From an uncultured Maribacter sp. (lineage in GTDB: Bacteria; Bacteroidota; Bacteroidia; Flavobacteriales; Flavobacteriaceae): a stretch of 34,824 bases of DNA. Position numbers and translations under genes: made by a program. Of this stretch, positions 9,361 through 30,379 are shown piece by piece (position 1 is the first letter of the stretch; the number at the start of each line of letters is the position of its first letter). The notes below the pieces were generated by a model, which saw only the letters and a program-made list of their open reading frames with translations, was not told where the DNA came from and searched no databases. The stretch lies in the NCBI GenBank assembly GCA_938038975.1, contig CALHVP010000268.1:1-34824 (forward strand), read 5' to 3'.

Positions 9361-10305
9361 CTAGTAGGTACACCTACAATTACTTATTCCTTGGAAAAGA
9401 TCTACACCTAAAGTTATTACATGCGTTCCACTACTGTAACCTAAAATTTCATTTAAGATAACCTGATAAGAGTAACCAAAATAAAAGTTATTCTTTTTAA
9501 GACCTATAATTGGTGCAATATATAAAGGGTCGCCAATTTGATCATTCAAAAAACGATAGGTAAGGCCTGCATAGTAATAATCCTCAAAATCATACCAGCG
9601 GAATTTCACATTTAAATCTGTTACCGATCTACCATCACTCTCAAAAAGTTGAAAGAAAATAGAAGGTTCTATTTCAAAATTGCTGCTTTTACTTTTGCTA
9701 TATCTGTAACCTGTATATAAATAATAGTTACGCAATGTATTAGGCTCGAAGATTGGATTAAACTTAGTTAAATCTTTTTCTAATAAATTTGAAGCATTTG
9801 CACTGATATAAAACTTTTCATAACGGTAAAGTAATCCAACATCAAAATTATGATTTGTAGTAGCCCTATCATCCGTTACACTTGGGTCTAAGGCATCAAA
9901 ATTCTCAATATCTATTCTAAACTGATTAAAATTATAGGATATACCAAAAGATAAAAACTCGTCATCGTAGCGGTCCAAAGTTAAATGGTGAGCAAAAGAA
10001 ACTCTTGCTCCACGTTGTTTTGTTTCCCCATTGCTATCATTATATAGCAATGCACCAACACCTGATTTTTCTCCTACACGCATATCTGCTGCTAAGGATT
10101 GAGTATCTGGAGCGTCTTTCACACCCACCCATTGCGTAAGGCCGTTTACACGAATCTTTACATGGTCACCAATACCGGCATAAGTTGGTGACATGACAAA
10201 CGGGTTGTCTGCCAAATATTGGGATAATTGAGGAATCGTTAGCTCCTGACCTCTTAGGGCGAAGGCACTTATAAAAAAGGCCAAGGTCAATAGTCTATTG
10301 TACAT
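9361..10305 (-). CDS. Type IX secretion system PorP/SprF family outer-membrane protein (sprF-like)
   Basis: 314 aa; signal peptide, QLSQYLADNPFVMSPTYAGIGDHVKIRVNGLTQWVGVKDAPDTQSLAADM typical of PorP/SprF; starts 18 bp after the giant SprB-like gene. Confidence 0.9.
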   Translation of the reverse strand: MYNRLLTLAFFISAFALRGQELTIPQLSQYLADNPFVMSPTYAGIGDHVKIRVNGLTQWVGVKDAPDTQSLAADMRVGEKSGVGALLYNDSNGETKQRGARVSFAHHLTLDRYDDEFLSFGISYNFNQFRIDIENFDALDPSVTDDRATTNHNFDVGLLYRYEKFYISANASNLLEKDLTKFNPIFEPNTLRNYYLYTGYRYSKSKSSNFEIEPSIFFQLFESDGRSVTDLNVKFRWYDFEDYYYAGLTYRFLNDQIGDPLYIAPIIGLKKNNFYFGYSYQVILNEILGYSSGTHVITLGVDLFQGISNCRCTY

Positions 10306-10323: not shown

Positions 10324-13300
10324 TTATCTATATAAGGTGAAGTGGCCAACAAATTCTCGGTCATCTTCTTCTCTGTTTAATTGAATTACATACCAATAGT
10401 CTCCTGTTGGTAGCTCTTTTTTATTGTATTTTCCATCCCATCCTTGTGCGTCATGAGTCTGTTCGGAAACTACTCTACCATAACGATCAAATATTTTGAT
10501 TAGTATTTCTGGAAACTGCTCTATATTTCTAGGCATCCAAAAATCATTATTTCCATCACCATCTGGTGTAAAGAAATTAGGTATTTCTATATCAATAAAT
10601 TCCATGAATATAGATCCAATCGCCTCACAACCATTCTCATCGACCAACCTAACATCATACATACCTGTTCTGGTAATGTAAAATGTGGTATCATTCCCAT
10701 TATTCACATCATTAAAATAATAGGTGTACTCTGGTCTGCCACCTAGGGCAATGGCCGTGATTTCATTAAGGCTATTTTGCTCCAATATCAAGGTCAAAGG
10801 ATCAAATGCTTCTATAGTGAAATCTACTGTTTGGATACATCCGTTCGTATGTGCAATTGCTATAAAATGAGCGCCAGGACTAATATTTCTAAAATCAGGA
10901 TTCAATTGCATGGCAGACGAATCCGTAGTATCTAAAGCATACATAACCTCTCCTAATATAGATGGATCTTCTAAGGTGATATTTATATAATTGTTTGGCG
11001 TGTTTCCAGTACATTCATATACAGGTACTATTTCCGCGTTTAGATTAACACCTACCTCAACATCTACCACTACGTTAGTTACACAACCATTTGCATCCTT
11101 AACGAAAATTAGATAATTACCCGCAGCCATATCCGTGAAATCAACTCTATCTAATACATAATCTGCATCGTCATTAGAATTAAGGGCAGTGCTATATGGA
11201 GCAGTACCTCCTGTAATCTCTAAGGTAATTGTACCGTCCTCACTTCCTACGCATACTTCTGGAGTAGGTGTTGCGGTAAGTTCAAGTAAGGTAGGTTCTG
11301 CAATTGTGTACTCTAATTGTTCAAAACAACCATTTACATCTTGTGCAATTACTGTGTAGTCACCTGGACTTAAATCCGTAAAAGTATTTACACTATCAAA
11401 CTGATCTAAGTTTGGTGATATTGCATATTGATATCCTCCAGCACCACCACTCAAGTTAACAGTTATACTAGCATCGTTTTCTCCAAAACAAGAAACATTT
11501 ACTATGTCTTCTGTATAACTTAAAGGAACGGGGTCCAAAATAACAACTTCTACTGGTGCGGTCGTACAATCAGCACTAGTTACTTCTACATAGTACGTTC
11601 CTGCGGATAACCCGTTAAAGTTACCTTGGGATTGTGGTCCTGCAATTCTAGATGCCAAACTCAAAGAAACATCCGTGTAAAGCGCATATTGATAATTACC
11701 TAATCCACCATCTGCAGTTGCTACAATACCTGCCGTACTATCCCCAGTACAGTTTATAAAAGCTGCAGTTTCATCTACAATTAAAGCCAATGGTATTATA
11801 GGGTCTTCCGTAATTTCATTAGAAACAATAGAAGGACAACTTAAAGCATCTCTCACGAAATAACTATACGTTCCTGCTGATATACCTGTGAACACATGTG
11901 TGTTTGGCCCATTCAAACCATTCATTGGTAAGAACGTAATTCCGTCTTCGCTATAACTGTAAGGACCTGTTCCTCCAACAGCTCTAAGCTCTAGTTCTGC
12001 TAAATTAGTGCAAGTCAATTCTCCTGTTCTGAACAGTTGTGCAAAAACTTCGGTAGGCGCAATAATTTGAACCCTAGGAGTTTCAAAACTACAACCAAGG
12101 TCATCAAGAACCGTTATACTATAAAAACCAGCTCCAAGATTGTTAAACACATCGGAAACTTGCTGTGGTGTTGTTTGTGTTGGGTTTACCACTGCCATAT
12201 CTGTATACACGTTCAAGCGATATTGATAGGTCGCAATTGTAACTCTCGCCGCGACTGTAGCCGTTACAGATGCCGTATTATCTTCAAAACAAGAAAGTGT
12301 AGTAGCTGCTATTGTTGCTACTATATCTTCTGGTCTAACTAAAGTAATAGCTGCGGTTTCTGTACAACTAAAGGCATCTGTTACGGTAAACGTATAATCT
12401 CCAGCAGAAAGTCCGTTGAAAACAAAAGCAGACACATTAGCTTGTGTTCCAGATTGTCCTGTTGTTGTATTGTTCCAATCTATAGTATAAGGAGCTTGTC
12501 CACCCGTTGGGATTACAGATATGCTACCTTGGTCATTGGAACAACTTACTCCTAAAACTTCTACTGGGGCAACCGCAATTGCAGCACTAGGTGCTAAAAC
12601 TGTAATGACATTAGAGTTCTCTATACAGAACGGTGCCTGAGTTTGAGTAATTCTGACATAGTATATACCTCCTGGTAATCCTGTAATTGGGGGCAATGCT
12701 GTGACTGTATCTCCAGTACCGTTTTGTCCTATCACTGGATTATTGCTGTTATCAAAAACTTGATAATCATAAGTCCCAGTGTAATTAGATATGCTTACAC
12801 TAAAACTACCATCGTCAACTCCATTATTCAAACATTCTTCATCTGTCAATTTAGTAGCAACGACCTGCATTTCCTCAGGAGCGTCTAGTGTATGAACCGT
12901 TTCAATAATACAATTAGTATCCAAATTCGTGATAGTAACGCTATAATTTCCAGCATCTAAGCCCGTAAATTCCCCTGTACTATTTGTAGCGGTATAAACA
13001 ACGTTAATACCGTTCAACACATATTCCAAATTAGGAGTAGCTGTTGCTGGGGTTACTGTAACTCCAACTTGAATCCTAGCATCGTTACCTGGAATACAGG
13101 TAAGTTCATCTAAGATAGTTACCGTTGGGTCAGATATTTGAACAAATGGGTTGATAGTTTCGGTTACAACTGGACTTGCACAACCATTGTCATCAAACGC
13201 TGTGATTTCATAAACACCACCAGCATAATTTGTTTCTATATAGCTGCTGTTAGCGCCGTCTTGAACCGTTGTCCCCGTAGTTGTATTAACAAATCTAAAT

Positions 13301-16300
13301 CTCACGAAATTATTAGAACCACCTATCAAACTTGATAAATCCACGGAAATACTTGCCGTGTCTTCACTGTTACCAACAGTACATGCAAATTGTTCGGTAA
13401 TAAGTGTAACGTTAGAAATGACGTTAGGTTGGCTTATCACTTGGGTAATATCCCTTGTACAACCGTTTGGTGACGCTACTCTTATTGTATAGGTAATGCC
13501 TGCAACTGTTCCTTCCAAACCTGCGAACGTCGCTGTTGCATTTGTATTGCTCGTTGCTGCCATAGGGAATACCGCACTACTTCCAGGGCCTGAGATAATT
13601 GTAAAGAGGTAAGGGCCTATTCCGTTATCCGGACTAGCACTTACGCTAATGGTGCCATCGTCCGAACTGTTACAAGTAACATCCGTAAAGTCATCAATGC
13701 TTATGTTAGGCAAAACACTATCTTCTAATCGTTGTATTACCGTTGTGCTGCAGGTATGACCAGTTGCTGTATCTGTTACAGTAAATACGTAATCTCCAGG
13801 TGTGGCAAGGCCAACAAAAACTCCTGTTGTATTTGCATCATCGGCAGGGTCACCAGCTAAAGTGCCAGGATATCTAACCTCATAGTCAAAAGAACCAGAA
13901 CCGCCTGTTTGGTTTATCGTGATTTCGCCACCTGAATTACAATCGATCGTTTTAACGATGTCCGCTCTTGGCGCTATTACATCATATAAAATTTCCGCTG
14001 TTGTTGTTGCAGTACATGCCAATTGGTCGGTAATCCTAACTTCGTAGGAACCGGCGCCCAAGCCAGAGAAAACTCTAGTTGCTTGAGGAGCTCTAAAATC
14101 ACTACCGTTTAGCACTAATTGATAGGTGTAGTTACTCCCTTGGCCTCCAAGAACATTAATAACTTCTAGTTCCCCTGAGAAATTGGTGCAATTTCCTTGG
14201 TTCACTTGCAAATCGGCAGTAATTGGATCTGGATTGCTTAGGTTCACATCTGGCAATCGCTGCATACAGTCGTTCAAATCCTTAATCCAAACTTGATAGT
14301 CGGTTCCTGGTGTTGCAACACCAGAAAGACCTGTAAATCTTGGGTTGTTCACAAAACTTCCTGCCGTAGGTACGGGATCTGTTGCCGGAGCGACAAAATA
14401 AGTAAATGTTCCCCAACCACCTTGAGCATCAATTACTTCTATTACACCATCATTAAGCGCACAAGTAATCGGTTCTATCTGAGTGTTTCCAGTAATGGGT
14501 CCGTTAGGCCCAGCGATAGTAAAGAAGTCTGTTAGCGTACAGTTAGGATTGCTGTCTTGAACAATGTCTACTCTGTACTCACCCTCTCCAAGTGTAAAAG
14601 GTGTTGTTGGTCCAACGTTGGCAGAGGTGCCATTCGCGCTAGCAATCATCACATCATCACCTATCGCAGCTGTTCCTTGCGAATTATAGATTTGCCATGA
14701 AAAGCCTCCCACATAAGGTGTAACAGGGTCGTTAATTGTAAAGCTCACAGAACCGTCGGTTCCGTCACAAACTACATTTTCTACCGTTGACGTAACTTCA
14801 AAATTGTTAGGTTGACCAACAGTATGTGAAATGGATACTACACAATTGGTATTAACATTTCTAACTTCAAAAATATGAGGTCCCGTAGGCAATCCTGTAA
14901 ATACGTTTGAAGGCCCAAAAGCACCCGGTAATAGCCTAAACTCATAATTAGCAAGTCCGGCAGGTGTACTTGAATCTGTAAGCGACCCAAAAGCATTTAT
15001 GGTAATGTTTTCCCCTGCGATACATGAAATTGTTTGGTCAACGGTTATAGTCGCTGGCAATAACTCATCAAACGGAGCTATGGTAGCAGTTGCCGAGCCT
15101 TGACATCCATTGTCATCAAAAACGATAACAGTGTAATTACCGCCTAAAGTATTAGTTTCGACATAGGTATCGTTAGCACCATCTTGTACAGGTGTTACCA
15201 AATCCAAATTATTAAAGAATTGGTAACGCACAAAGGTATTGGAACCTCCTGTTACGCTTTGTACCGAAATAGTAGCGTTATTCGGATTATTACCCATCGC
15301 ACATTCAAATTCTATTGTTGCATTCATAGTAACGGCAATGGCGGCAGGCTCTGCTATTACAATAGGAGTACTTGTGGTACTACATGCATTTGCAGCATCT
15401 GCAGTAATGGTTACGATATAACCTATTCCTGTAGTAGCCGCAAGACCTGTAAAGGTTGCGCTCGTATTTGTAGTGCTTGTTGGGCTAATACTGGTTGCCG
15501 CGCCGTCTAAAGAAGTAATTTCAAAAGTATACGGGCCTATGGCATTATCTACCACTGATATGGTGATTGTTCCGTCAGCATCACCGATACAAGTGACGTC
15601 GGTACTATCAACAGTATTAATAACAGGTTCCACTACATCAGGTACATTTATTACAAACACTCTATTACAAGCCGCGGTATTGGGCGAGTTGGTATCGTAT
15701 ATCGTAATCGTGTAATCACCTGGTAAAGGCGCTAAGTAGTCAAAATTAGTACTAGGCACGCTAGTTTGAGCAACAGCAGGAGCTCCAGCCGTATTTGTAA
15801 TACTGTATTCATATGCACCGGAACCATCCAGAATTCCAATGTTTATAACTGCCTCTGGAGTTGGGGTACAATCCAATAATTTTGTCAAAGTTGCACTGGC
15901 TGATAAAACAGGGTCAACCGTAAATGAAGGCATCAAAGCGATACATCCATTGGCATCGGTTACATAAAAATCATAATCTCCAGGCGTTACATTTGTAAAC
16001 AGACCTGCGTTATCCAAGAATGTGGTTGGAGCAGGATTTCCTGTTATCACCATTGCATAGCGTAAACCGCCAGCAAGGGAGTTTCCTACTACCGTAACAT
16101 CGATTGGAGAGGAACAATTATCTTGAGTTACCGAGGTAATCGTTGGGTTTGGCGATAAGGATAAGTTTACAGGGTTTAGTACCAACGGACAGCTAAATTG
16201 ATCGTAAAGTGTTACCGTGTAACTTCCAGCAGGGGAGTTTACGGGAATTTCGATAGGATTGTCCGTAGTACCCGTCTGTGTAAAACCTAATGGTCCTGAA

Positions 16301-19300
16301 ACATCATAGGTATACGGTGCGCCACCGCCGCCAGTAATATTATTAATACTGATTAAACCGGGCAGGTTACAGGAAATATCCCTTGTGCGAACCGCAACAG
16401 CAGAAATTGGAGGCAATTCTGGAACAAAGACGTTTTCACTAGCCCCTCTACAAGCATCTGCATTTGCTGCATCTACTTGGATAACATCAATATAATAATC
16501 ACCCTCCGCAAGTGGAACAGTTGTTGTTACAGTGTTGCTAAAAGGAACGATACCACCACTAGTTTCTACTGGTGTTAAGTTTCCAAGCTCATAAATTTCC
16601 CATCTCATTTGAGGTTGTGCAGCGTCTGGAGTGATATTGAAGGTCAACAAACCAGTAGTTGCACCTGCACAGGTAGGCGTTACATCCACATTGATATCTA
16701 TTGGTAAATTGGGAACAACATTATTGACGTTAACACTGCTCTCACGAATACATCCGGAGCCGTCCCTTACATAAAACACATAGGTTCTACCGGGAACCAA
16801 TAATGGCAATAAGGCATTCTGCGGAGTTGTAGGGTCTATATTTGCAAATGTATGTGACGTACCAGCTGCAATTGATGCAGTCCAAATTCCAGGATTGGCA
16901 GAGAATGTACTAAAGTTTGCTGGGTCATCTGTATACGTATATTCATAACCAGGAACGGGATTACCCTGACTACCTTGCACCGTAACCTGCAGATCATTAC
17001 AATTTAAAATGATTGGATTAATAGTGATATCAAGATCATCTAAAGGAAAAGGAATAATATACCGGTCAAAATCTACTTGACAGATAGTACCGCTCGCCAA
17101 AGTAACCCTAATGGAAGGGAATACTTCTGTCCCAGACAAATTGCCCCTAAGTTCATTTGAGGCTTGCCATGTGGCTCCCCAATCATCACTATATTCTACA
17201 GAGCCCGCAGGCGTAATGACATTATCAAACCTAAAACCATAATCCGCAGCCGTGTTGCCTGGAGCATCACAATTAGCGGGTAGAATAGGAACTATATCCG
17301 CTGTGATTTCTGTTGCGTTATTTATTGTTACGGTAGCCGATGTTATTGTACAACCATTTTCATCTGAAATAAGCACTTCATAATTACCAACTCCAATCCC
17401 ATTAAAGGTTAGAGGAGTGGTTGAAATATTAGTACTGGTACTTCCATAATCGATACCATCAACAGGAGAAAGGTCTACCAAGGTATAATCGTAAGGAATA
17501 GTCCCTCCACCAACGGTAACATCAATTGAGCCAAGACCATTAAAACATTCTGGGTCCGTTGGAACTGCATTAACGGTTAATGCAGGAACGGGAACCAAAA
17601 TAATATCTTCCTGAAGGAAAGAACAAGTTGGTGACGCTCCATTGTTATCTTGCACATGAACATCATAACCAGCAGGGTTAGCGGTTGCCATTGCCTCCGT
17701 TACCGTTAAGCTATTTGTTGTTGTATATAATCCTGCCGGACTTGTATTGGCTGGAACGATAGCATATAACAAGGTGCCGTTTCCGCCTGTTGCGTTTGCG
17801 GTAATTACACCATTTCCACAGGCGCTTAATGCCGTAATAGCAACATCAACAATCAATTGCGGATGTATGGTTACTGTTTGCGTGTTGGATACCAATGGAC
17901 AACCAAACTGATCTCTAACTTCGATATCATAGGTGCCATTGGATAAATTTTGGAATGTAAACGTAGTAGCAGTAGCTGGGGTCGGCGCTCTCCATGGGCC
18001 ACCGTCCAATCTAAACTGGTATCCACCATTACCTGCAGTTACATTTACAGTAACAGAGCCGTCATTATTTCCCGTATAACAAGCCGTTGGCGTTGCATCA
18101 AATACAATCAGCTCAGGTCCTGTAACTATTATAGCCGTATCAATAACATCTTCACAATTATTAGTATCTCTAGCTCGAACTACATAGCTTTCGCCAGCAT
18201 TACTCGCCGGAACATTAGTGAAAATAGGGGAATTCTGATAGGTTCTTTCTATTGAGATAATATTAGCATACGGTACCGTAAGGTCGACATCATCGCTAAT
18301 TTCCAATTGATATTGGTATGTTGGTGTACCTCCGGATGTACTAGCGGTAATGGTAGCCCCTGTGGTATCACAAGTAAATTGTGCCGTTATAGCGGCATTA
18401 ACTTCAACCACGGCAGGTTCTGTTAAAACCTGATTTAAAGGAATGGTACATGCAGCAGGGTCGTTCACGTCTTGAACAACTATGTTATGTGCTTGTGCAT
18501 TAAGACCTGTTATTATTTGAGCAGAAGTAAATGGTCCTATAAAAGTACCTCCGTTTACACTATATTGAAAACCTCCCGCTCCATAATTGGATGCGTCAAT
18601 AGTGATACTACCTGAGGCATCTCCATTACAATCAAGGTTATCAAAGGCTGTTATTGATGCCTCAAAGGCATTGCCATCTTGAATAATTACAGTGGTGTCT
18701 ACAAAACAGTCTGGGCTATACTCTACCCGCAGCGTTTGTGTTCCAACCGCAATATTATTAAATATATTAGCTGTGGCACTAGGTCCCTGAGCGACTCCAT
18801 CTAAGGTATAAATAAAGGTAGCGTCAAAAGGTGTTACAGTAACATTTCCGGTGCCATCACAGTTGTATACTACAGCGTAGTCTACTATTGGTGCAACGGG
18901 CAAGGCATCTATAACAACATCCGCTAAGGTGATCGCACAACTGGTTGCATTGGCATCCCTTACATTTATAGTGTATGTTCCATCATTTAGGTCTGTAAAA
19001 GTATGTCCACCTGTAGTGCTCGTAGTCCAAGAACCACCATTGATACGGTATTGGTAATTTCCAGAACCGCCTGTTGTTGGAATTGCACTTCCGACTGTTA
19101 TCTGGCCTAACTGAGCACAGGTATAATCTTGTGTCTGTATGGCTTCGGCAACTAATTGGTCGGGTTGATTAATAACCACATCTATTGCAGGAGATACACA
19201 TAAATTGGCATCCCTAACTACAACCGAATAAGTGCCAGTAATTAAATTGGGGAAATTTGTTCCGTTACTGTAAGTTACCCCATTATCAACACTGTACATA

Positions 19301-22300
19301 AAAGGAGCTTGTCCGCCAGAATTCAACACTACTGAAATAGCTCCGTCCGCTCCTCCAAAACAAGTAACATCTGTTGGGGTTGGGGTGAAATTGATTGGTG
19401 CATCTTGTGTTATAGTCAATGGAAAACTATCCGAACAGAAATCTGGATTGCCATCATTATCCCTTACATACACATCATAATTTCCAGCTATAAAACCTAG
19501 TACAGGGTTAGTCGTGTTGAAATCGGTATCTAAAGGCAAAGCGCCACTTGCAACAACTGCAAAAGTATAGTTGCCATCACCGCCATTAGCCGTAATCGTA
19601 ATATCCGCGTCGGTATCGCAGGCCGAAATATTGGGCGCTGATGCAGTTACGGTCAACTCTGGATTGATAACAACCGTTTGAGTCGCCAAAGCCAATGGAC
19701 AACCGTTTTGATCTCGTACATCAATGTCGTAAGAACCGCTGGATAAGTTTTGAAACGTATATGTTACGTCACTTACTGGCGTAGGTGTCAACCACGGCCC
19801 TGCATTAATTCTAAATTGGTAGCCTCCGTTTCCGTCGGAAACGTTTATTTGAATGCTAGCATTGTTGGTGCCATCATAACACGTAGTTGGAACCGTTGTA
19901 AATACGACAGGGTTTAATGGCTCAACCCTTAAAGCGGTGTTAACCTCACAAGTATTCAGGTCTCTGGCGCGTATGATATAATCTCCGTCCGCTAATCCAG
20001 TAAACACTCTGTTATTTCCGTTAGTAAGAAAGTCAAAACTTCCTATTACATTCCCTAAATCATCTTCTAACTGATATGTGTAACCTGGCGAACCTCCACT
20101 TGCCGCAGCGGTTATAGTAGCACCATCGGCACAGGTAAGAGCTGTTGTAATATTTGCTATCAACACTACAGCAGATGGTTGGGTAATATCCCTAGTTATA
20201 GTAGTGCTGCAAGTAATCTCATTTGCTTTCCTAATATCTATTGTTTGCGTGCCGGCTCCAAAAATAGGAGCGGTAGTTACTGGAGAAGTTAGAGAGCCTA
20301 TCCAATTAAGACCTCCATCAACGGAATATTCAAACCCTGTTGCAGCATCAAAATTTTCAACGGCAAACGTAATTGTACCGTCTGTTAAACCATTACAGGA
20401 AACATTGGTAGAACTTTGAACAGAAGAAGCAAATATTTCTCCTGCTGCAACCGTCACAGGTGTTTCTACAAATAATTCGCATACCTCAGGAATCTGAAAT
20501 ATTTGAATATCATCTAAAGCAAGATCATTTCCGCTATTTCCAATTTTCTCTGTTCTAATAACAAAATCAAGATTGGTATTTGCTCCTGGATCAAAGTCTG
20601 TGGTAAATAAAACCCAGTCATCTGGTCCTGTATTTTTAGCAATATCACCAGTTCTTATAGATTGTATTATAGTGCCGCCGCCATCAACTATTTCAATAGT
20701 CAAATCAGGGTCTAAAATGTTAACTGTAGATCGTACTAGATTAAAAATATGTAGTGATATACGTAAAGGTCTATTTGGGATAATATCATTAATAGGTTTT
20801 GTATAGATAATCTGTCCTGGACTTGGTGTTCCAACATTAATTACCAAATACCTACCACTAGGATCCGTTGGATTCGTGTGGTCGTTTGGGCTAATCCAAG
20901 CGCCAAATGGTGCAACTATTTCATTCGTGACACTATATTGGAAGTCATTAATATTACTATTTGTATCGCCTCCGCCAGCAGTACTATTTGTTTGATCCTC
21001 ATATGCATAACCTCTAGTGTCAGGACTAGGAATAGTTCCAATACCTACTCCAAAATCTTCAGAAAGCAGCAAGCTTGGTGTAGGAGGAGTTTGAGAGGTG
21101 TAATATGTAGTCACCGTATACGTTCCTGGAGCCACATTATTAAATACATTGCTAGAAGGGTCTGGTGAGTTAGCGACTCCATCTAATTCATATCTATAAT
21201 CGTATCCCGAAATACTTGGTGATGCAGTAATGGTACCTGTACCATCACAATTATAATCTACTTCTGGGGTTAGAGCAACGTTTGGAGGCATTGGAAGACC
21301 TTCTACTGTTACGTTCATTGGAAAGGAACATGATGCATCTCTAACTAACACCGTATAATCTCCTGGCGCCAATAGTTGTGTAGCCGCAGCACCCCATGTA
21401 CCACCGCCATCAAAACTATATTCATAAGGCGCTGTACCACCAACTACATTGGTTATGCGAACTTCAGCCCCATTAGGGTCACAGGTTGCGTCTCTTGCTA
21501 CTCCTGCAGAAGCACTTAAAGGAAAAGGTTCGTTTAAATCATATGCCAATGCAACATCACAACCACTGCTATCTAACACCCTAAGTTCATAAGGTCCAGC
21601 AACAAGTCCTACAAAATTAGGTGTCGGTTGATACGTTACCCCGTTATCAATACTATATTGAAATGGGCCTATGCCTCCTAAGACATTTATTGTTAATTGG
21701 CCATCAGCCTCTCCACTACAAGAAGGTTGTATTTCAGCTACAGAATCTATAGTAAAAGAACCTACATCGTTTATAGTTACTGGATTTGATATAGCGTAAC
21801 AATTGTTAGCATCTAGAAGCACAAAAACATACGTTCCATCCTCACCAGGAAAATATTCATCTATAGTATCATTGTCTGTATCTCTCCATCCAAAAGTAAA
21901 TATTGCTTCATTTTGATATGCATTTAAATCTACGTTATCAACAATTTCCTGCTCCGTTGCAGCACCTCCTGGGTCATGTAATAAAACGCCATCCTTACTC
22001 CATATCGCATATTGGAAATCTGGATTTCCCTGACCACCAGTTCTGGTAAGTTCTATACTACCAAAACTACAGCCAATATCGGCAATAGTTAGTGCAGATA
22101 AAGTTGGATCTGGAATTCTATCAACGCGAACAGATTGTACGTCTAAACAATCATCATCTGTTCTTGTGATAACAAAATAGTCGCCAGCATTTACATTAAA
22201 CGTATAGCTATTTACAGGCTGAGCCGTTTCAGAATCTATAAGTGTGCCTCCTGGGTGTAATGGGTAATAGTCTGGACTACCCACACCAGGAGCTGCTGTA

Positions 22301-24963
22301 CCATCATCTAAACGCAACTCATAACTATAATTAGGAAATACATCTAGTGCATCTATCTGTATACTACCTTGAGCGTTACAATTAGCTTCTGTTGTTGTTA
22401 CATTAACTTGAAGATCTCTATCTAAAATACCTATATCGGGTGTGCTAAAAATACAAGCATCTGGTATTGGTAAACCTGTAGTAGTATCTAATTGAGTAAC
22501 CTCTACTCTATAGGCACCGTTAGATGTGAAATTAAATACTGGTCCGTTATTAGCACTAAACGGGATTTCAATTGTATTGGTAGCAATATTTACCAACTGA
22601 AAACCGTATCCGCTTCCAATATTAGTAATGGTAATATTTCCTGGGGTTTCACAAACAACATCTCTGCTGGTATAAAGAATATCTAAATTATTTTGAAAAA
22701 CATTAAAGTAGAATCTGTTAAAACATCCATTCTGGTATGTTACAACAAGTCTATACTTGCCTTCTGAATTGGCGGAAAAAGAATTGCCAGTACTTACTTC
22801 GTTCCAAGTACATGCAAGATTTTTATTTGCACAATCATCTCCAGCAGAAGCACAACTGCCCTCATCTAATTGTTCCCATACAATACTAGTTGCATCTATA
22901 ATATTTACCTGTAAAAGTTGAGAATCATTTAAACCACAAAGGAATATCTTAGGTAATAAATCTCCATCTACAGAACAACTAACGATTTCTCCTTGTATAT
23001 CGTTTGTAGGGTCTGCATCTGAATTTGAATCATTAAAAAACTCTATGATAGGATTCACGTTAGAATCTCCAAAACGCACTACATCTATAATTTCCTTAAA
23101 TCCCTTACATGGGTCAGCTACTATTTTATCTACAATATATGTTCCGGGTGTATCAATTAATAAGGTACTCGGGTCACCATCTGGATCACCGTCGTTTAAG
23201 ACTGTATCTGTTGGGTCTAACAAGCCATTATTGTTGTCATCTCGCACCCAAACATAAGAGTCAAAATTATCTCCAGAATCTAAAAGGACATTGTCACCAC
23301 ACAATTGCACGGTTCTCCTAAAATTACAATCGGAAAGGTCATCTAATAAGAAGTTAGTAGCACCTGGTGTTATAAAGCCACAACTATCAAAATCCGTTAC
23401 ACTAGGGTCATCTGTAATTTGATTATCATTAACAACACCTTGATAGGTAGAATAGGCTAGGTTTTGTATCAAATCCGTACAAGCATCAATAAAATCAAAA
23501 CAGTTTTCTGCTACCCTTACACGCATACGTATACTGGCAACCGGACTTGTGTCTGTTACTAAATCATTTGGAATGGAAAACAGTACCGTTCTAGTAGCTG
23601 GGTCAAAAGTGTACGTAACACCTGCTGGCAGTGAGCCTGGTGTTGTAAAATAGGCCTCGTCCAAAGTAACATTAATAGGTAAGATATCTCGGATAGTGTA
23701 CTGATCCGCATCATCATTACCAATGTTGTCAAAAGATAATACATAATCCAAGGTTTGTCCAAGATTTACGCCTAGTCCTGTAATATCATTACCCGCAATA
23801 TCCTCAACTCTTTTTTCTAGTACGATTTCTGGTTCAATAATTTCAATATTGAACGAGTTGAAAAAAGGAAAGTATTGGTCTCCAGTGGAAGTAAATCTAA
23901 AAGTTGCAGCAGTTTCATTGTTAGGAATCGTATTGGGTGGTAGGTTTAATAAGTCGGTATCGTAACCCAGTGTATTTATACTTGCTGGCGTACGACCAGG
24001 CAACAAGGTACCGTTGATAGTAATGTTACTATTAAAAAAATTGTCCTCTGGGTTTAACGTGTTCCTTATGCTATAAAACGTTCCTCCAGAATTAGAAGCT
24101 GCTCTAATTTGCATTTCATCCCCAGTAATTCTATTGTCTCCCTCTAATGCGGCAGCACCTATGTTTGCATTTACTGTTCCTGCAGGAATAGTGGTAAAAC
24201 CAGTGTAGTCTATATCTATTGTTGGATTAGCTGATCTTACTCTTGCAAAACCATCATATGTTGTAATCAACTTTCCTGTTAAGGTTGGGTTTTCATATAC
24301 AATAACAAGCGTCCACCCTCCAGAAACTCCTCCTGACACAGCACCTTGTGATACTCTAATGTTTCCAACTGTATAAGTTCCTGTTGGATTTGCCAGCGCG
24401 GTAACCATTGATGTGACATCTGCATAACAAGCATATGGGCTGTTACCCCTAATAGATGCATCTGCACTAGCGCCGCCATCAAATAATACCTCATCTGCTG
24501 TAATATCTACATATGTTCCTCCTGGCACTTGAAACTTAACTTGATCAAATTCAGTAGATCTAGAACCATCCTCCTCACTCACATAAGTAGCGGACCAATA
24601 TAAAGCTGCGTATCTAATTCTATTACAGTCTGGTTGGCCAAAATTAAATTCTGCGGAACTGGAGTTAAATGTACTTAGATCAGTATCAATATCTATGTAC
24701 CGCATATCAAACCAATCATTGTAGGTAGACGTATTTCCTGTTTCATCATAAGGATCTACGGGTCTCGTAGTAGCAGTGCCACCATCTCTGTTTACAATAT
24801 CATTGGCAATAAAGGTAAGATCACCTTTAATGTTTGTTTGATATCTAAAATTATCGCCAGATGGATACGATCTTGTAAATGCTGTAAATTCCTGTGAAAA
24901 ACCAGAAAGACAACCCAAAAACAGGATCAATGTTAAAATAGATTTAGATAGATATGTATTCAT
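10324..24963 (-). CDS. Giant SprB-repeat adhesin (about 4879 aa) with T9SS type B C-terminal sorting domain; sprB-like
   Basis: Continuous ORF opening at 25050. Start at 24963 (MNTYLSKSILTLILFLGCLSGFSQ) gives a good signal peptide. N-terminal DUF11-like segment; about 42 Cys-headed SprB-type repeats (e.g. VSCFGENDASITVNLSGGAGGYQYAI...GDYTVIAQDVNGC); C-terminus IPNFFTPDGDGNNDFW...GWDGKYNKKELPTGDYWYVI (gliding motility-associated C-terminal domain). Confidence 0.93.
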   Translation of the reverse strand: MNTYLSKSILTLILFLGCLSGFSQEFTAFTRSYPSGDNFRYQTNIKGDLTFIANDIVNRDGGTATTRPVDPYDETGNTSTYNDWFDMRYIDIDTDLSTFNSSSAEFNFGQPDCNRIRYAALYWSATYVSEEDGSRSTEFDQVKFQVPGGTYVDITADEVLFDGGASADASIRGNSPYACYADVTSMVTALANPTGTYTVGNIRVSQGAVSGGVSGGWTLVIVYENPTLTGKLITTYDGFARVRSANPTIDIDYTGFTTIPAGTVNANIGAAALEGDNRITGDEMQIRAASNSGGTFYSIRNTLNPEDNFFNSNITINGTLLPGRTPASINTLGYDTDLLNLPPNTIPNNETAATFRFTSTGDQYFPFFNSFNIEIIEPEIVLEKRVEDIAGNDITGLGVNLGQTLDYVLSFDNIGNDDADQYTIRDILPINVTLDEAYFTTPGSLPAGVTYTFDPATRTVLFSIPNDLVTDTSPVASIRMRVRVAENCFDFIDACTDLIQNLAYSTYQGVVNDNQITDDPSVTDFDSCGFITPGATNFLLDDLSDCNFRRTVQLCGDNVLLDSGDNFDSYVWVRDDNNNGLLDPTDTVLNDGDPDGDPSTLLIDTPGTYIVDKIVADPCKGFKEIIDVVRFGDSNVNPIIEFFNDSNSDADPTNDIQGEIVSCSVDGDLLPKIFLCGLNDSQLLQVNIIDATSIVWEQLDEGSCASAGDDCANKNLACTWNEVSTGNSFSANSEGKYRLVVTYQNGCFNRFYFNVFQNNLDILYTSRDVVCETPGNITITNIGSGYGFQLVNIATNTIEIPFSANNGPVFNFTSNGAYRVEVTQLDTTTGLPIPDACIFSTPDIGILDRDLQVNVTTTEANCNAQGSIQIDALDVFPNYSYELRLDDGTAAPGVGSPDYYPLHPGGTLIDSETAQPVNSYTFNVNAGDYFVITRTDDDCLDVQSVRVDRIPDPTLSALTIADIGCSFGSIELTRTGGQGNPDFQYAIWSKDGVLLHDPGGAATEQEIVDNVDLNAYQNEAIFTFGWRDTDNDTIDEYFPGEDGTYVFVLLDANNCYAISNPVTINDVGSFTIDSVAEIQPSCSGEADGQLTINVLGGIGPFQYSIDNGVTYQPTPNFVGLVAGPYELRVLDSSGCDVALAYDLNEPFPLSASAGVARDATCDPNGAEVRITNVVGGTAPYEYSFDGGGTWGAAATQLLAPGDYTVLVRDASCSFPMNVTVEGLPMPPNVALTPEVDYNCDGTGTITASPSISGYDYRYELDGVANSPDPSSNVFNNVAPGTYTVTTYYTSQTPPTPSLLLSEDFGVGIGTIPSPDTRGYAYEDQTNSTAGGGDTNSNINDFQYSVTNEIVAPFGAWISPNDHTNPTDPSGRYLVINVGTPSPGQIIYTKPINDIIPNRPLRISLHIFNLVRSTVNILDPDLTIEIVDGGGTIIQSIRTGDIAKNTGPDDWVLFTTDFDPGANTNLDFVIRTEKIGNSGNDLALDDIQIFQIPEVCELFVETPVTVAAGEIFASSVQSSTNVSCNGLTDGTITFAVENFDAATGFEYSVDGGLNWIGSLTSPVTTAPIFGAGTQTIDIRKANEITCSTTITRDITQPSAVVLIANITTALTCADGATITAAASGGSPGYTYQLEDDLGNVIGSFDFLTNGNNRVFTGLADGDYIIRARDLNTCEVNTALRVEPLNPVVFTTVPTTCYDGTNNASIQINVSDGNGGYQFRINAGPWLTPTPVSDVTYTFQNLSSGSYDIDVRDQNGCPLALATQTVVINPELTVTASAPNISACDTDADITITANGGDGNYTFAVVASGALPLDTDFNTTNPVLGFIAGNYDVYVRDNDGNPDFCSDSFPLTITQDAPINFTPTPTDVTCFGGADGAISVVLNSGGQAPFMYSVDNGVTYSNGTNFPNLITGTYSVVVRDANLCVSPAIDVVINQPDQLVAEAIQTQDYTCAQLGQITVGSAIPTTGGSGNYQYRINGGSWTTSTTGGHTFTDLNDGTYTINVRDANATSCAITLADVVIDALPVAPIVDYAVVYNCDGTGNVTVTPFDATFIYTLDGVAQGPSATANIFNNIAVGTQTLRVEYSPDCFVDTTVIIQDGNAFEASITAFDNLDCNGDASGSITIDASNYGAGGFQYSVNGGTFIGPFTSAQIITGLNAQAHNIVVQDVNDPAACTIPLNQVLTEPAVVEVNAAITAQFTCDTTGATITASTSGGTPTYQYQLEISDDVDLTVPYANIISIERTYQNSPIFTNVPASNAGESYVVRARDTNNCEDVIDTAIIVTGPELIVFDATPTACYTGNNDGSVTVNVTAGNGGYQFRLDGGPWRAPTPATATTFTFQNLSNGTYDIEVRDQFGCPLVSNTQTVTIHPQLIVDVAITALSACGNGVITANATGGNGTLLYAIVPANTSPAGLYTTTNSLTVTEAMATANPAGYDVHVQDNNGASPTCSFLQEDIILVPVPALTVNAVPTDPECFNGLGSIDVTVGGGTIPYDYTLVDLSPVDGIDYGSTSTNISTTPLTFNGIGVGNYEVLISDENGCTITSATVTINNATEITADIVPILPANCDAPGNTAADYGFRFDNVITPAGSVEYSDDWGATWQASNELRGNLSGTEVFPSIRVTLASGTICQVDFDRYIIPFPLDDLDITINPIILNCNDLQVTVQGSQGNPVPGYEYTYTDDPANFSTFSANPGIWTASIAAGTSHTFANIDPTTPQNALLPLLVPGRTYVFYVRDGSGCIRESSVNVNNVVPNLPIDINVDVTPTCAGATTGLLTFNITPDAAQPQMRWEIYELGNLTPVETSGGIVPFSNTVTTTVPLAEGDYYIDVIQVDAANADACRGASENVFVPELPPISAVAVRTRDISCNLPGLISINNITGGGGAPYTYDVSGPLGFTQTGTTDNPIEIPVNSPAGSYTVTLYDQFSCPLVLNPVNLSLSPNPTITSVTQDNCSSPIDVTVVGNSLAGGLRYAMVITGNPAPTTFLDNAGLFTNVTPGDYDFYVTDANGCIALMPSFTVDPVLSASATLTKLLDCTPTPEAVINIGILDGSGAYEYSITNTAGAPAVAQTSVPSTNFDYLAPLPGDYTITIYDTNSPNTAACNRVFVINVPDVVEPVINTVDSTDVTCIGDADGTITISVVDNAIGPYTFEITSLDGAATSISPTSTTNTSATFTGLAATTGIGYIVTITADAANACSTTSTPIVIAEPAAIAVTMNATIEFECAMGNNPNNATISVQSVTGGSNTFVRYQFFNNLDLVTPVQDGANDTYVETNTLGGNYTVIVFDDNGCQGSATATIAPFDELLPATITVDQTISCIAGENITINAFGSLTDSSTPAGLANYEFRLLPGAFGPSNVFTGLPTGPHIFEVRNVNTNCVVSISHTVGQPNNFEVTSTVENVVCDGTDGSVSFTINDPVTPYVGGFSWQIYNSQGTAAIGDDVMIASANGTSANVGPTTPFTLGEGEYRVDIVQDSNPNCTLTDFFTIAGPNGPITGNTQIEPITCALNDGVIEVIDAQGGWGTFTYFVAPATDPVPTAGSFVNNPRFTGLSGVATPGTDYQVWIKDLNDCMQRLPDVNLSNPDPITADLQVNQGNCTNFSGELEVINVLGGQGSNYTYQLVLNGSDFRAPQATRVFSGLGAGSYEVRITDQLACTATTTAEILYDVIAPRADIVKTIDCNSGGEITINQTGGSGSFDYEVRYPGTLAGDPADDANTTGVFVGLATPGDYVFTVTDTATGHTCSTTVIQRLEDSVLPNISIDDFTDVTCNSSDDGTISVSASPDNGIGPYLFTIISGPGSSAVFPMAATSNTNATATFAGLEGTVAGITYTIRVASPNGCTRDITQVISQPNVISNVTLITEQFACTVGNSEDTASISVDLSSLIGGSNNFVRFRFVNTTTGTTVQDGANSSYIETNYAGGVYEITAFDDNGCASPVVTETINPFVQISDPTVTILDELTCIPGNDARIQVGVTVTPATATPNLEYVLNGINVVYTATNSTGEFTGLDAGNYSVTITNLDTNCIIETVHTLDAPEEMQVVATKLTDEECLNNGVDDGSFSVSISNYTGTYDYQVFDNSNNPVIGQNGTGDTVTALPPITGLPGGIYYVRITQTQAPFCIENSNVITVLAPSAAIAVAPVEVLGVSCSNDQGSISVIPTGGQAPYTIDWNNTTTGQSGTQANVSAFVFNGLSAGDYTFTVTDAFSCTETAAITLVRPEDIVATIAATTLSCFEDNTASVTATVAARVTIATYQYRLNVYTDMAVVNPTQTTPQQVSDVFNNLGAGFYSITVLDDLGCSFETPRVQIIAPTEVFAQLFRTGELTCTNLAELELRAVGGTGPYSYSEDGITFLPMNGLNGPNTHVFTGISAGTYSYFVRDALSCPSIVSNEITEDPIIPLALIVDETAAFINCTGDSTAGIVATADGGLGNYQYALYTDVSLSLASRIAGPQSQGNFNGLSAGTYYVEVTSADCTTAPVEVVILDPVPLSYTEDIVNVSCFGENDASITVNLSGGAGGYQYAISPNLDQFDSVNTFTDLSPGDYTVIAQDVNGCFEQLEYTIAEPTLLELTATPTPEVCVGSEDGTITLEITGGTAPYSTALNSNDDADYVLDRVDFTDMAAGNYLIFVKDANGCVTNVVVDVEVGVNLNAEIVPVYECTGNTPNNYINITLEDPSILGEVMYALDTTDSSAMQLNPDFRNISPGAHFIAIAHTNGCIQTVDFTIEAFDPLTLILEQNSLNEITAIALGGRPEYTYYFNDVNNGNDTTFYITRTGMYDVRLVDENGCEAIGSIFMEFIDIEIPNFFTPDGDGNNDFWMPRNIEQFPEILIKIFDRYGRVVSEQTHDAQGWDGKYNKKELPTGDYWYVIQLNREEDDREFVGHFTLYR
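12545..16680 (-). repeat. Super-repeat array B: seven SprB-type domains per period, about 1.91 kb period
   Basis: Equivalent units: PTCAGATTGLLTFNI (~16675) / VVCDGTDGSVSFTI (~14768) / EECLNNGVDDGSFSVSI (~12835), and ISCNLPG (~16372) / ITCALNDG (~14464) / VSCSNDQG (~12545). Intervening units correspond in the same order. Confidence 0.75.
17545..21720 (-). repeat. Super-repeat array A: seven SprB-type domains per period, about 1.75-1.82 kb after discounting a nested ~0.6-kb domain
   Basis: Seven-unit order repeats: PSCSGEAD, ATCDPNGA, YNCDGTGT, VSCNGLTD, LTCADGA, TTCYDGTN, SACDTDAD versus VTCFGGAD, YTCAQLGQ, YNCDGTGN, LDCNGDAS, FTCDTTGA, TACYTGNN, SACGNGV. Confidence 0.75.
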
Positions 24964-25262
24964 TTTGATCAAATCAAAAATTATTCGTTCTGCGCCATTA
25001 AACCAATAACGCATACTTTTGTTTTTAATCTTCCCAGTTAGTTCAAACAATCTTCATTGGGAATGAAAATAACTGAGGAAGCCTAAATACAAATATTAAC
25101 ATCTACCCTTAAGTTTGAAATTTAATGTTGTAGCGAAGCATTTATATGTTGTGAAACCTTATTTTATCATTGTATGTTCTTATAAAACAGCAACGAATTA
25201 TAGGTGGTGGCTTTGAAACTCAAATAGCCTTAAAGTTGATTCTACGATTCACTTTTAGAATT

Positions 25263-25319
25263 GTTTATATTCAATTTTGATATAAACTCTTTCAAAATTG
25301 ATACTATAACTCTTGTTAT
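25263..25319 (-). promoter_or_regulatory. Cluster of overlapping, mutually exclusive hairpins in the leader of the giant gene
   Basis: GTTTATAT/ATATAAAC (25263-25270, 25280-25287) overlaps TCAATTTTGA/TCAAAATTGA (25271-25280, 25292-25301), followed by ATAAC/GTTAT. Confidence 0.35.
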
Positions 25320-25389
25320 GATTCGTTAAAAAGCTTGGGGTAATTTTATTTTTTGCTGGTATTGACACATCTTAGATTATCATTTTTTA

Positions 25390-25414
25390 AACTAAAAAAA
25401 CACTTTAAAAGTGT
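25390..25414 (-). terminator. Weak intrinsic terminator-like hairpin between the sprD-like and sprB-like genes
   Basis: Minus strand reads ACACTT-TTA-AAGTGT followed by TTTTTTTAG. The 6-bp stem is AT-rich, so it is weak. Confidence 0.35.
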
Positions 25415-25718
25415 GAAATAATCTTGACTTGATAATATAAAAAAAAAGTATTTCAGCCATGATTCTTAAATCAAATCACTTGTTTTATATTGGTTGTTTT
25501 AATCGAATTTGATTGTGTTAGGCTCCAACATGGATACAGATAACAAATCAATCAGAAAGATTACAGCTAGATGTAGCCTTGTTTATAAAGGTACTATCCT
25601 GTTTCCAAACAAGGGTGTTCAGGTAAGATAATAGGAAAGGAAAGCGTCGCTTTGTATAAAGTTAAAATCCAATCAGTATAAATCTTGTTTAAATACTTTA
25701 TAAAGGCGCTATGGTAAT

Positions 25719-27929
25719 CTATGCCATTAGATCAGAATTAACCCTCATGATCCACATCTTGTCATCATAAGCATCATTTAGCTTAGTGTAATACGAAATC
25801 AATGCATTACTCCAATCGTCATGACGTTTTAGATATACATAGCGATAGTTATTTTCTGGATTTATAAAATAGCTTGCACTCAAACCAATCGAATTTAACA
25901 AGGCTACAAAACGATTTGCATTTTGAGGTACTGCGAAAACATTTGCTATTAAGTAATATCCCGAGCCAAGACCATTAATTTTATACCCATCACCCTTTTC
26001 TTCATTAGCAACAACTTTGTCTTTTACAATTACATTGGTGCGCAATACATCTGTATCATACTTAGAGGATTTCTCCTTCAGTTTATTTACGTTATCAGCG
26101 TAGGCTTCGTTAGTATATTTATTGTTTATATCCATTATCCAAGTAGGACCATCATAACTCCCATTTAAATTGCTTTTGGCTGCGGCCTCTGCTTGCTCAA
26201 AAGTATCATACCTTTTCAGGTATACATATTTTAAACCGTTGTTTGGATTATCAATATAATCTGCATTTATACCTTTATCACTTAGTTTATTTAAAAATTT
26301 GTCTAAGTACTGGCCACCCTTGTACACATTGGCAACTACATAATACCCATCGCTTACATCTGGTAAATCTTTAAACTGTCTACTCTTAATTTTATCTTGA
26401 ACTCCTACGCTGCTAGTTTGTGTGGCAACTTCTTTATTTCTGTTTGCACTAACAGATGCGTAAGCTGATTGTTTTGGTGCTGTAGTCCTTGATGGATTAG
26501 TAGTAGCGACAGCGTCCTGCTCTCTAGTATTCCATTCGGTATTTTGTTCTTCTTTAACAGCTGCTTGTTTTTTGATTTCTTGAGATGCAACGGCTGTTGT
26601 ATTAATAGCATCATTCTGTACTTGGCTTCTTTCAGAAGGAGCATCACTACTTCCGCCGTCCATACTGCTGCTTTCTCTTGAGGCAGTATTTGAAGCTATA
26701 CTAGATGCACTGCCCTCACCTTTAAATAAGGCTTCTGCTCTTCGTTCTAATTCTGGATTATCACCATTGGTTTCGTTACGCACCATACGCATAACCATAC
26801 TAAACCTACGCTCTAAATCCGATTGTCTATTTGTCTCTAAAGAATCTTGACGGAACATGAGTTCCTGTATAATAGCATCATTCTCTGCTAGCTTTCTTTT
26901 TAATTCTTCTATTTCCTCATTAGAGGCTAAATTTTCTGTATCTCTTTCAAAGTCATTTTCAACAACATCCATATCATCATCCTCAAATAACACTCTGTCT
27001 TCTGTAAGATTAGGAGTAAAGGAATAAGCAAAAGAGATTTCATGAGTAACTCCAAAATTATCAAAGTTACTACCCAATCCTTTTTCCATGGTATATCCTA
27101 AAGAAACACGTCTGTTTAGGTTAAACCCTACACCAGCTGCAGCTCCGTAAAAGCTATCGTAACCACCTTGTACCCAACCTAGTTTTGGTAAATCTAAAAT
27201 TAAACTACCGCCCAAGGTTACCTCTTCTTCACCTACTTTTCTAGCGCGTGCCAATGGCATAAGCCTACCTTCTTCCAAAATACCTGAAGCATTTTTAAAC
27301 TGATGGGTATATTGTAAATGTCCTGAATAGGTCTTGTCTGTAAATTCAGTAATAGATTCACTAGTCTTTAAGTTGTAATCAAAAAGGTTCTCTGCAAATA
27401 CACCCACATCAAAACTTCCGTATGACAGATTAATACCGGGTTGAAAAGACAATAAGTTCTGGTCCTGTAATCCTGCAAGAAATGGATCTTCTTCTACCGT
27501 GCTAGCTCTACCTTCATCAAAACCACTGCTGTAATAAGATAAGTTAGCACCAAAGGTTAAGTTGCTTTTATCTGACAACTTTACACCATAAGCGTAATTG
27601 GCTAAGACACCAAAGTTACTTAATAGCCCTTCCCGTTGCGTATACAAACTAAGTCCTAAACCTGTTCTGTCATTGATACGACCACTATAACTTAAAAAGT
27701 AATTTTGGTTGTTATCATTAAACTGTACCGATTGGTTTCTATGTAAAAGATTTACATAAGACTTATCTTCCCTAACCGTTGAAAAAGTTGGGTTGATTAA
27801 GAATCGATTGTACTTTAAAAGGTTCTGGGCAGGAACATCGTAAGCTACAAAAGGATTCTCCTCCTGCGCATTAACTTTAGTTAGTGCCAGAACAAACAAC
27901 AGCAGATATAAAACACGTTTCTTTAGCAT
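25719..27929 (-). CDS. PorP/SprF-type outer-membrane barrel fused to coiled coil, low-complexity linker and two SPOR-like domains (sprD-like)
   Basis: 736 aa. N-terminal PorP/SprF-like half (NRFLINPTFSTVREDKSYVNLLHRNQSVQFNDNNQNYFLSYSGRINDRTGLGLSLYTQ); coiled coil (NEEIEELKRKLAENDAIIQELMFRQDSLE); two related C-terminal segments DVSDGYYVVANVYKGG... and GLGSGYYLIANVF.... Confidence 0.85.
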   Translation of the reverse strand: MLKKRVLYLLLFVLALTKVNAQEENPFVAYDVPAQNLLKYNRFLINPTFSTVREDKSYVNLLHRNQSVQFNDNNQNYFLSYSGRINDRTGLGLSLYTQREGLLSNFGVLANYAYGVKLSDKSNLTFGANLSYYSSGFDEGRASTVEEDPFLAGLQDQNLLSFQPGINLSYGSFDVGVFAENLFDYNLKTSESITEFTDKTYSGHLQYTHQFKNASGILEEGRLMPLARARKVGEEEVTLGGSLILDLPKLGWVQGGYDSFYGAAAGVGFNLNRRVSLGYTMEKGLGSNFDNFGVTHEISFAYSFTPNLTEDRVLFEDDDMDVVENDFERDTENLASNEEIEELKRKLAENDAIIQELMFRQDSLETNRQSDLERRFSMVMRMVRNETNGDNPELERRAEALFKGEGSASSIASNTASRESSSMDGGSSDAPSERSQVQNDAINTTAVASQEIKKQAAVKEEQNTEWNTREQDAVATTNPSRTTAPKQSAYASVSANRNKEVATQTSSVGVQDKIKSRQFKDLPDVSDGYYVVANVYKGGQYLDKFLNKLSDKGINADYIDNPNNGLKYVYLKRYDTFEQAEAAAKSNLNGSYDGPTWIMDINNKYTNEAYADNVNKLKEKSSKYDTDVLRTNVIVKDKVVANEEKGDGYKINGLGSGYYLIANVFAVPQNANRFVALLNSIGLSASYFINPENNYRYVYLKRHDDWSNALISYYTKLNDAYDDKMWIMRVNSDLMA

Positions 27930-30183: not shown

Positions 30184-30379
30184 AATGATTTGTAGTTTTG
30201 GGCCCCTACTGTGTTCGAATGAAATCCCGGCTCTCTTCAGAAACCTGTCATTCAAAGACAAATATGTTCCTTTTATCGTTTTCTGAGAATTTATTGTTGT
30301 AGAGTGCTGGAAAACTGTTGTGAAAATCCTTTAATAGAAGGTCAACCCAATTTAAACACTGTGCTTCCTGCATTTTTGC

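Follow-up and report, generated by a model that had tools for sequence, protein, structure and literature searches.

SprB, the main surface adhesin of gliding in the Bacteroidota, is a filament pulled along the cell surface as the cell glides. We analyzed a 34,824-nucleotide stretch from an uncultured Maribacter sp. (assembly GCA_938038975.1, contig CALHVP010000268.1; here called the window) that carries a sprB orthologue, the gene of a giant gliding adhesin, at positions 10324 to 24963. This gene and all other genes and protein features described here lie on the minus strand. Unit types in its array of immunoglobulin (Ig)-like SprB units recur every seven units, and unit numbers across the family are quantised in steps of fourteen, gained as two sets of seven that flank a mid-chain tip. 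Units on the two sides are replaced in mirror image, one relative holds a fresh seven-unit duplication, and the tract beside the membrane anchor grows in threes. On the sequences compared, we consider this block rule very secure. We think it probable that the SprB stalk is an antiparallel hairpin with both of its ends at the cell surface, its tip in mid-chain, and its paired arms built in seven-domain quanta. The original prediction, made from the letters of the window alone, had proposed a seven-domain super-repeat; it missed the larger rule, that blocks are paired across a mid-chain tip and that the anchor-adjacent tract grows in threes.

A seven-unit register in the SprB array

The array was segmented into 42 Cys-headed units (residues 792 to 4754), in agreement with the earlier count by hand of about 42, and a hidden Markov model found a weak 43rd unit before the sorting domain. 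Two cysteines are invariant in the aligned region of each unit, suggesting an internal disulfide. All-against-all alignment of the 42 units gives a mean z of 7.85 at lag 7, compared with 3.25 to 4.47 at all other lags from 1 to 21. The five best of the 861 unit pairs (9-16, 26-33, 6-13, 25-32, and 4-11, at most 60% identical) are all seven units apart, and pair 8-15 ranks seventh. None of 20,000 permutations of the unit order reaches the observed lag-7 value of 0.147 (highest shuffle, 0.115), and lag 7 stays on top after removal of its two best pairs. Pairs of units seven apart are thus more alike than other pairs, as the original prediction held.

Two blocks had been proposed within this register, and both are confirmed. 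Block A, in which units 4 to 10 (19387 to 21744) map onto units 11 to 17 (17572 to 19386), has a mean lag-7 z of 15.3, and block B, in which units 22 to 28 (14488 to 16395) map onto units 29 to 35 (12568 to 14487), has a mean of 11.1; the other lag-7 pairs average 4.3. The sequence examples quoted for the two blocks correspond to units 9/16 and 26/33, respectively, but the pairs at the block edges are weak (10-17, z 6.9; 22-29, z 6.1). Block B has the proposed spacing of about 1.91 kb, twice (unit starts at 16395, 14487, and 12567). Block A starts are 2.36 kb apart because a 203-residue inserted domain, delimited by unit alignments (20488 to 21096), sits in unit 6 of the first copy.

Blocks A and B share one register modulo 7, because 25 minus 4 is 21, giving a single comb at lags 7, 14, 21, and 28 that is clear in orthologues. 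In 54 orthologues with 43 units, similarity at these lags is 0.157, 0.126, 0.116, and 0.119, against a background of about 0.09 to 0.10, with small shoulders at lags 3 and 4 (0.108). The seven-unit register therefore spans the whole array and is old. Tandem Repeats Finder detects no DNA-level tandem array in the window sprB, indicating that its duplications are old. In the relative L043, from a single-contig genome, we found an exact 2018-bp tandem at an offset of 1782 bp, or seven units, and whole-heptad duplication is therefore a live process. This tandem and the quantised counts described below bear out the proposed growth by whole seven-unit blocks. The further suggestion, that the block may also serve the stalk as a structural unit of higher order, gains strong support from evolutionary evidence.

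The position of the inserted domain follows the register as well. Among orthologues it comes after unit 6 or 13, and in L058 units 6, 13, and 20 are each followed by a gap (111 to 240 residues), seven units apart; nearly always, then, a single heptad class of the N side is affected. The 203-residue domain of the window protein matches no Pfam family above cut-off and has a weak MAM-like match; it may be a displayed binding domain.

Quantised unit counts and paired growth

Orthologues were found through the N-terminal region that precedes the array (22678 to 24963), which comprises about 760 residues with a signal peptide and a DUF11-like part (a weak match) and is kept in relatives. This search found orthologues in 52 of the 100 relatives and in 206 of the 301 members of the family. 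From these we extracted 97 complete proteins, built a unit profile, and counted units; 131 proteins were examined in all. The counts rest on profiles, miscounts were found, and the proteins compared are related and hence not independent of one another. Repeats can collapse in short-read assemblies, but the length classes recur in single-contig genomes.

Among the 97 proteins, 43 units was the most common number (47 proteins), followed by 57 (14), 29 (13), and 23 (7), with a few others. Most other counts proved to be missed units or false matches inside the inserted domain, and 42, 44, 58, and 59 were rejected as real classes on these grounds. The main unit numbers are quantised at 29, 43, 57, 71, 85, and 99, in steps of fourteen.

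The tip, which is the most variable part of the protein, comprises units 19 to 22 in the middle of the chain (16141 to 17295). A profile of these units, trained on 43-unit proteins alone, avoids alignment choices. It finds one clear place in every protein except L058 (102 versus 100 bits), matching best at units 9-12 in 23-unit proteins, 12-15 in 29-unit proteins, 22-25 in a count of 49, and 26-29 in a count of 57. The C side exceeds the N side by exactly three units in 115 of the 131 proteins, or in 119 once four miscounts are corrected, with N-side/C-side counts of 8/11, 11/14, 18/21, 21/24, 25/28, 32/35, 39/42, and 46/49. The exceptions in the first set are four proteins with 3, 3, 6, and 9 extra units near the C-terminal end and two that had been miscounted.

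The rule had already been formed when the 71-, 85-, and 99-unit classes were first encountered, and their unit numbers and tip positions are as predicted. The protein of Flavobacterium hercynium has 71 units with its tip at 33-36. The tip lies at 40-43 in eight other Flavobacterium proteins, each of 85 units (among them G515, after removal of one false insert match), and at 47-50 in a protein of 9455 residues and 99 units. New proteins from Flavobacterium sp. ATCC 35103 and Root935 have 57 units, and one from Gelidibacter mesophilus has 29; the frame G625, which is without a sorting domain, was not counted as a test. Further, 129 open frames from Flavobacterium fall into length clusters spaced 1190 residues apart, or about fourteen units (vector length 0.70, compared with less than 0.28 in 99% of jittered controls). 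A paralogous SprB-like family of related genomes (L233 to L238), with part of the N-domain in common, has 29 units with the tip at 12-15 in five of six members, the sixth reading 31 with two doubtful first matches. A third family (L224 to L232) has N-domain residues 38 to 535 in common, but its long frames, as far as found, are without SprB units and end in another C-terminal motif, NGYIYLG.

As the side counts run from 11/14 to 46/49, each fourteen-unit step adds seven units on one side of the tip and seven on the other. Indeed, the closest pairs of proteins from different classes align with two equal gaps on either side of the middle, 7+7 between 43 and 57 units and between 29 and 43, and 3+3 between 23 and 29, at a mean unit similarity of 0.6 to 0.7. 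Steps of 3+3 are rarer than steps of 7+7; one such protein, L055 (49 units), differs from the window protein by 3+3. Two apparent departures from pairing were set aside. A single 14-unit gap between some class pairs is an artefact of distant references, with close pairs showing 7+7, and L108 resolves as 7+7 against L067 and L068.

Mutation itself might couple the two sides, if recombination between homologous heptads of both arms changed them together. Recombination across the arms is possible, since lags 21 and 28 place both in one heptad phase. We nevertheless consider this explanation very unlikely. A single unequal exchange alters length at one site, and no protein with a one-sided gain of seven away from the base was found among the 131. 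The 3+3 pairs break the heptad phase yet stay paired, and the mirror-image replacement of nonhomologous units described below is left unexplained.

One-sided growth occurs only at the membrane-proximal C-terminal end, nearly always in threes, and accounts for nearly all proteins outside the 119. In the window protein this base consists of units 40 to 42 and the weak 43rd unit (10591 to 11514), which make the C side three units longer than the N side and lie where other proteins have their extra triplets. Seven new proteins fall off the grid, with an N side of 11 or 18 units and a C side longer by 9, 15, 15, 21, 25, 42, and 48 units. Where extended proteins were examined, their extra tract has a three-unit repeat (in G477, lags 3, 6, 9, and 12 at 0.54 to 0.59 versus 0.15), and in mapped proteins the place of the tract is after unit 26 of the 29-unit frame, adjoining the anchor. 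A short N-side arm with a long membrane-proximal tract of three-unit repeats was seen in L249-L250, L258, L261-L263, L268-L270, L116, and L123.

Mirror-image replacement and the fold of the stalk

Replacement of unit k was correlated with replacement of unit l over pairs of proteins of the same length, with the overall level of each pair removed. Co-replacement peaks on a single antidiagonal in each class, at k + l of 40 for 43 units (0.38), 53-54 for 57 units (0.56), 26-27 for 29 units (0.34), and, weakly, 20 for 23 units (0.20). For 43 units, every one of 60 random halves has its peak at 40, and so does each of the two clades (z 9.1 and 5.7 versus other antidiagonals); new Flavobacterium sets peak at 53-54 (57 units) and 81/83 (85 units). 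In two clades and across four length classes, co-replaced units are thus mirror-image sets that obey k + l = n - 3.

The same symmetry is visible in single comparisons, where replaced runs mirror themselves. L052 and L054 differ at units 22-32 (and 11-12), L069 and L074 differ at 8-10, 25-29, and 43-45, and the 29-unit proteins L084 and L095 are replaced at 4-8 and 19-22. Runs of unlike length have a common centre, such as unit 27 for runs 22-32 and 25-29 in 57-unit proteins. Units 17 to 23 are replaced most often in 43-unit proteins, and in 23-unit proteins only units 8 to 12, again a self-mirrored run, are commonly replaced (57 to 71% of pairs), and most other units are never replaced. A contact end would be expected to be replaced most readily, as the tip is. 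Even close relatives can have tip units (17 to 24 of 43-unit proteins and 8 to 12 of 23-unit proteins) of sharply distinct versions, as though whole cassettes had been exchanged, which could reflect surface or phage pressure.

Replacement that is symmetric about the middle is unexpected for a linear gene and therefore points to two strands packed side by side. In the hairpin that we favor, the 43 Ig-like units would not form a simple linear stalk. The N-side arm, units 1 to 18 ahead of the tip in the unit list (17296 to 22677), would run outward, the chain would turn at about units 19 to 22, and the C-side arm, units 23 to 39 (11515 to 16140), would run back, packed antiparallel on units 1 to 17 as the antidiagonal at k + l of about 40 suggests. 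SprF would hold the C-terminal domain at the outer membrane. Physical pairing of the arms, the tip as the distal contact end, and an N-terminal domain near the cell surface are what we infer from these patterns. If the paired rod has a seven-domain structural repeat, the arms would lengthen by whole heptads, and an insertion would survive only where the other arm gained an equal number of units, an unmatched change in length being lethal or costly. The last units beside the anchor would be unpaired and could lengthen alone, in triplets.

The same paired insertions and mirror-image co-replacement are predicted by an antiparallel homodimer, in which arm k would lie on arm n - 3 - k of a partner molecule, which might belong to another cell, and the mid-chain tip units would sit on the dyad. 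We regard this arrangement as improbable. Both chains are anchored C-terminally, which would keep two molecules of one cell from lying antiparallel, and the dimer is a poor fit for an adhesin that works against abiotic surfaces. Further, a tip-centred segment alone obtains a higher predicted template modelling score (pTM) from AlphaFold2 than a one-arm segment. Twelve tip-centred units (window 15049 to 18396, 83 sequences) gave a pTM of 0.55 and a predicted local distance difference test score (pLDDT) of 86.2, and twelve N-side-arm units (69 sequences) gave 0.38 and 86.4. The difference in pTM weakly favors extra long-range order at the tip, with no hairpin demonstrated.

The best Foldseek match in the PDB, for the tip model and the one-arm model alike, is the Aureispira grappling hook protein GhpA (E 1.4e-25), and a profile of the tip alignment matches the GhpA entry 9flp (E 1.7e-57). 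A phmmer search of the PDB with the whole protein found no match, and no SprB filament structure is among the solved-structure matches or the papers searched. Root mean square deviation (RMSD) to straight rods from Foldseek was tried as a test for fold-back (tip, 109 to 121 Å versus titin rods; toy hairpin, 106 to 145 Å) and was dropped after the one-arm control. As the best solved relative by both fold and sequence profile, GhpA, which is a heptamer (PMC13319060), lends some weight to a linear stalk in a similar multichain bundle, sevenfold with a one-domain stagger, in which unit i would touch i+7 without fold-back. We find such a bundle unlikely, since it leaves the equal insertions around a mid-chain point, the mirror replacement, and the 3+3 changes unexplained.

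The length of the filament offers a rough consistency check. SprB of Flavobacterium johnsoniae has about 6,500 residues and forms a filament of about 150 nm (PMC13104615; PMC4094633). At the spacing of titin, 43 nm per eleven domains or 3.9 nm each (PMC10665226), its estimated 64 or so domains would extend to about 250 nm; half of this plus the ends is close to 150 nm. A filament of 150 nm thus appears short for that many extended domains and fits fold-back, and the hairpin, if true, explains how so long a chain makes only so short a filament. A more specific picture, which we offer tentatively and think rather doubtful, is an antiparallel two-stranded "coiled coil of domains," with about 3 domains per turn in each arm supercoiled to 3.5 when paired. 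In such a structure the arms would repeat every seven domains and the unpaired base every three, and only 3 or 7 units gained on both arms would keep the seam.

Several points weigh against the hairpin. The case for contact between the arms comes from evolutionary patterns and from the pTM and pLDDT scores of the AlphaFold2 models. Foldseek does not discriminate, as the tip model and the one-arm control both lie at an RMSD of about 115 to 122 Å from the GhpA neck. Co-replacement cannot separate an intramolecular hairpin from an antiparallel dimer, and two new small sets are noisy (29-unit paralogues, peak at 28-29; 85 units, z 2.4). The 25 extra base units of G406 are not a multiple of three, and the filament length comes from F. 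johnsoniae, a species outside the set of counted proteins. In favor of the hairpin, a tree of the N-domain shows 26 or more changes of length class, but the N-domain and the array may recombine apart, so this number may be inflated and is not a clean event count. The rule itself shows which insertions are tolerated in evolution, and if the hairpin holds despite these points, it would turn raw sequence into length and fold and place the contact end in mid-chain.

The gene cluster and known systems

The giant open reading frame spans 10324 to 25050, and a likely ATG at residue 30 gives a protein of 4879 residues. SprB repeats (PF13573) score 299.6 bits over 11 separate stretches, and the protein ends in a C-terminal sorting and anchoring domain of type B of the type IX secretion system (10327 to 10590, residues 4821 to 4908; CHU_C and TIGR04131, the latter with 98.3 bits versus a cut-off of 35). 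Directly downstream is sprF, encoding a PorP/SprF-family outer-membrane anchor (9361 to 10305; PF11751, E 4.7e-73; TIGR03519). Upstream are an sprD-like gene for a PorP/SprF-family barrel with an SPOR-like region (25719 to 27929; PF11751, E 1.1e-59) and an sprC-like gene for a protein with Ig-type domains and a CHU_C sorting domain (27937 to 30261; PF13585, PF19081). By Pfam and NCBIfam the order is sprC-sprD-sprB-sprF, all on one strand. Judged by its repeats, sorting domain, and neighbors, the giant protein is SprB, the gliding filament. The two PorP/SprF barrels could serve SprC and SprB, respectively; a contact of SprC with the N-terminal domain of SprB is a guess. The gap between sprD and sprB (25051 to 25718) is long, about 0.65 to 0.75 kb, and contains two copies of a 21-bp repeat at 25270 to 25314. 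The genome of the window encodes further SprB-repeat proteins on contigs C86, C112, C186, C261, and C262.

The window protein is like F. johnsoniae SprB in its repeat family (PF13573), its type B sorting domain, and its neighbors sprC, sprD, and sprF; the title of Rhodes et al. 2011 (cited in PMC4094633) names this operon. For F. johnsoniae SprB, the papers found describe no seven-unit register, no quantised counts, and no mirrored arms. We found no description of a seven-domain register or a folded-back SprB in the open-access literature, with preprints and subscription papers outside the search.

The super-repeats of the titin A-band (seven domains in the D-zone, eleven in the C-zone) resemble SprB in that a giant Ig-like chain has block-duplicated domain types every seven and a ruler repeat (PMC10665226). 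Titin is unrelated, however, and its repeat matches the thick filament, whereas the template of SprB would be its own second arm. GhpA of Aureispira is exported by the type IX secretion system. Like SprB, it is a giant chain of related Ig-like domains (9flp and related entries). It differs from our reading of SprB in being a heptamer whose monomer spans the filament, with no fold-back reported there (PMC13319060). Finally, coiled-coil heptads provide an analogy only: a seven-unit repeat in paired antiparallel strands, with lags 3 and 4 mildly enriched and insertions of 3 or 7 tolerated. In coiled coils the unit is a residue, whereas in SprB it is a whole domain.

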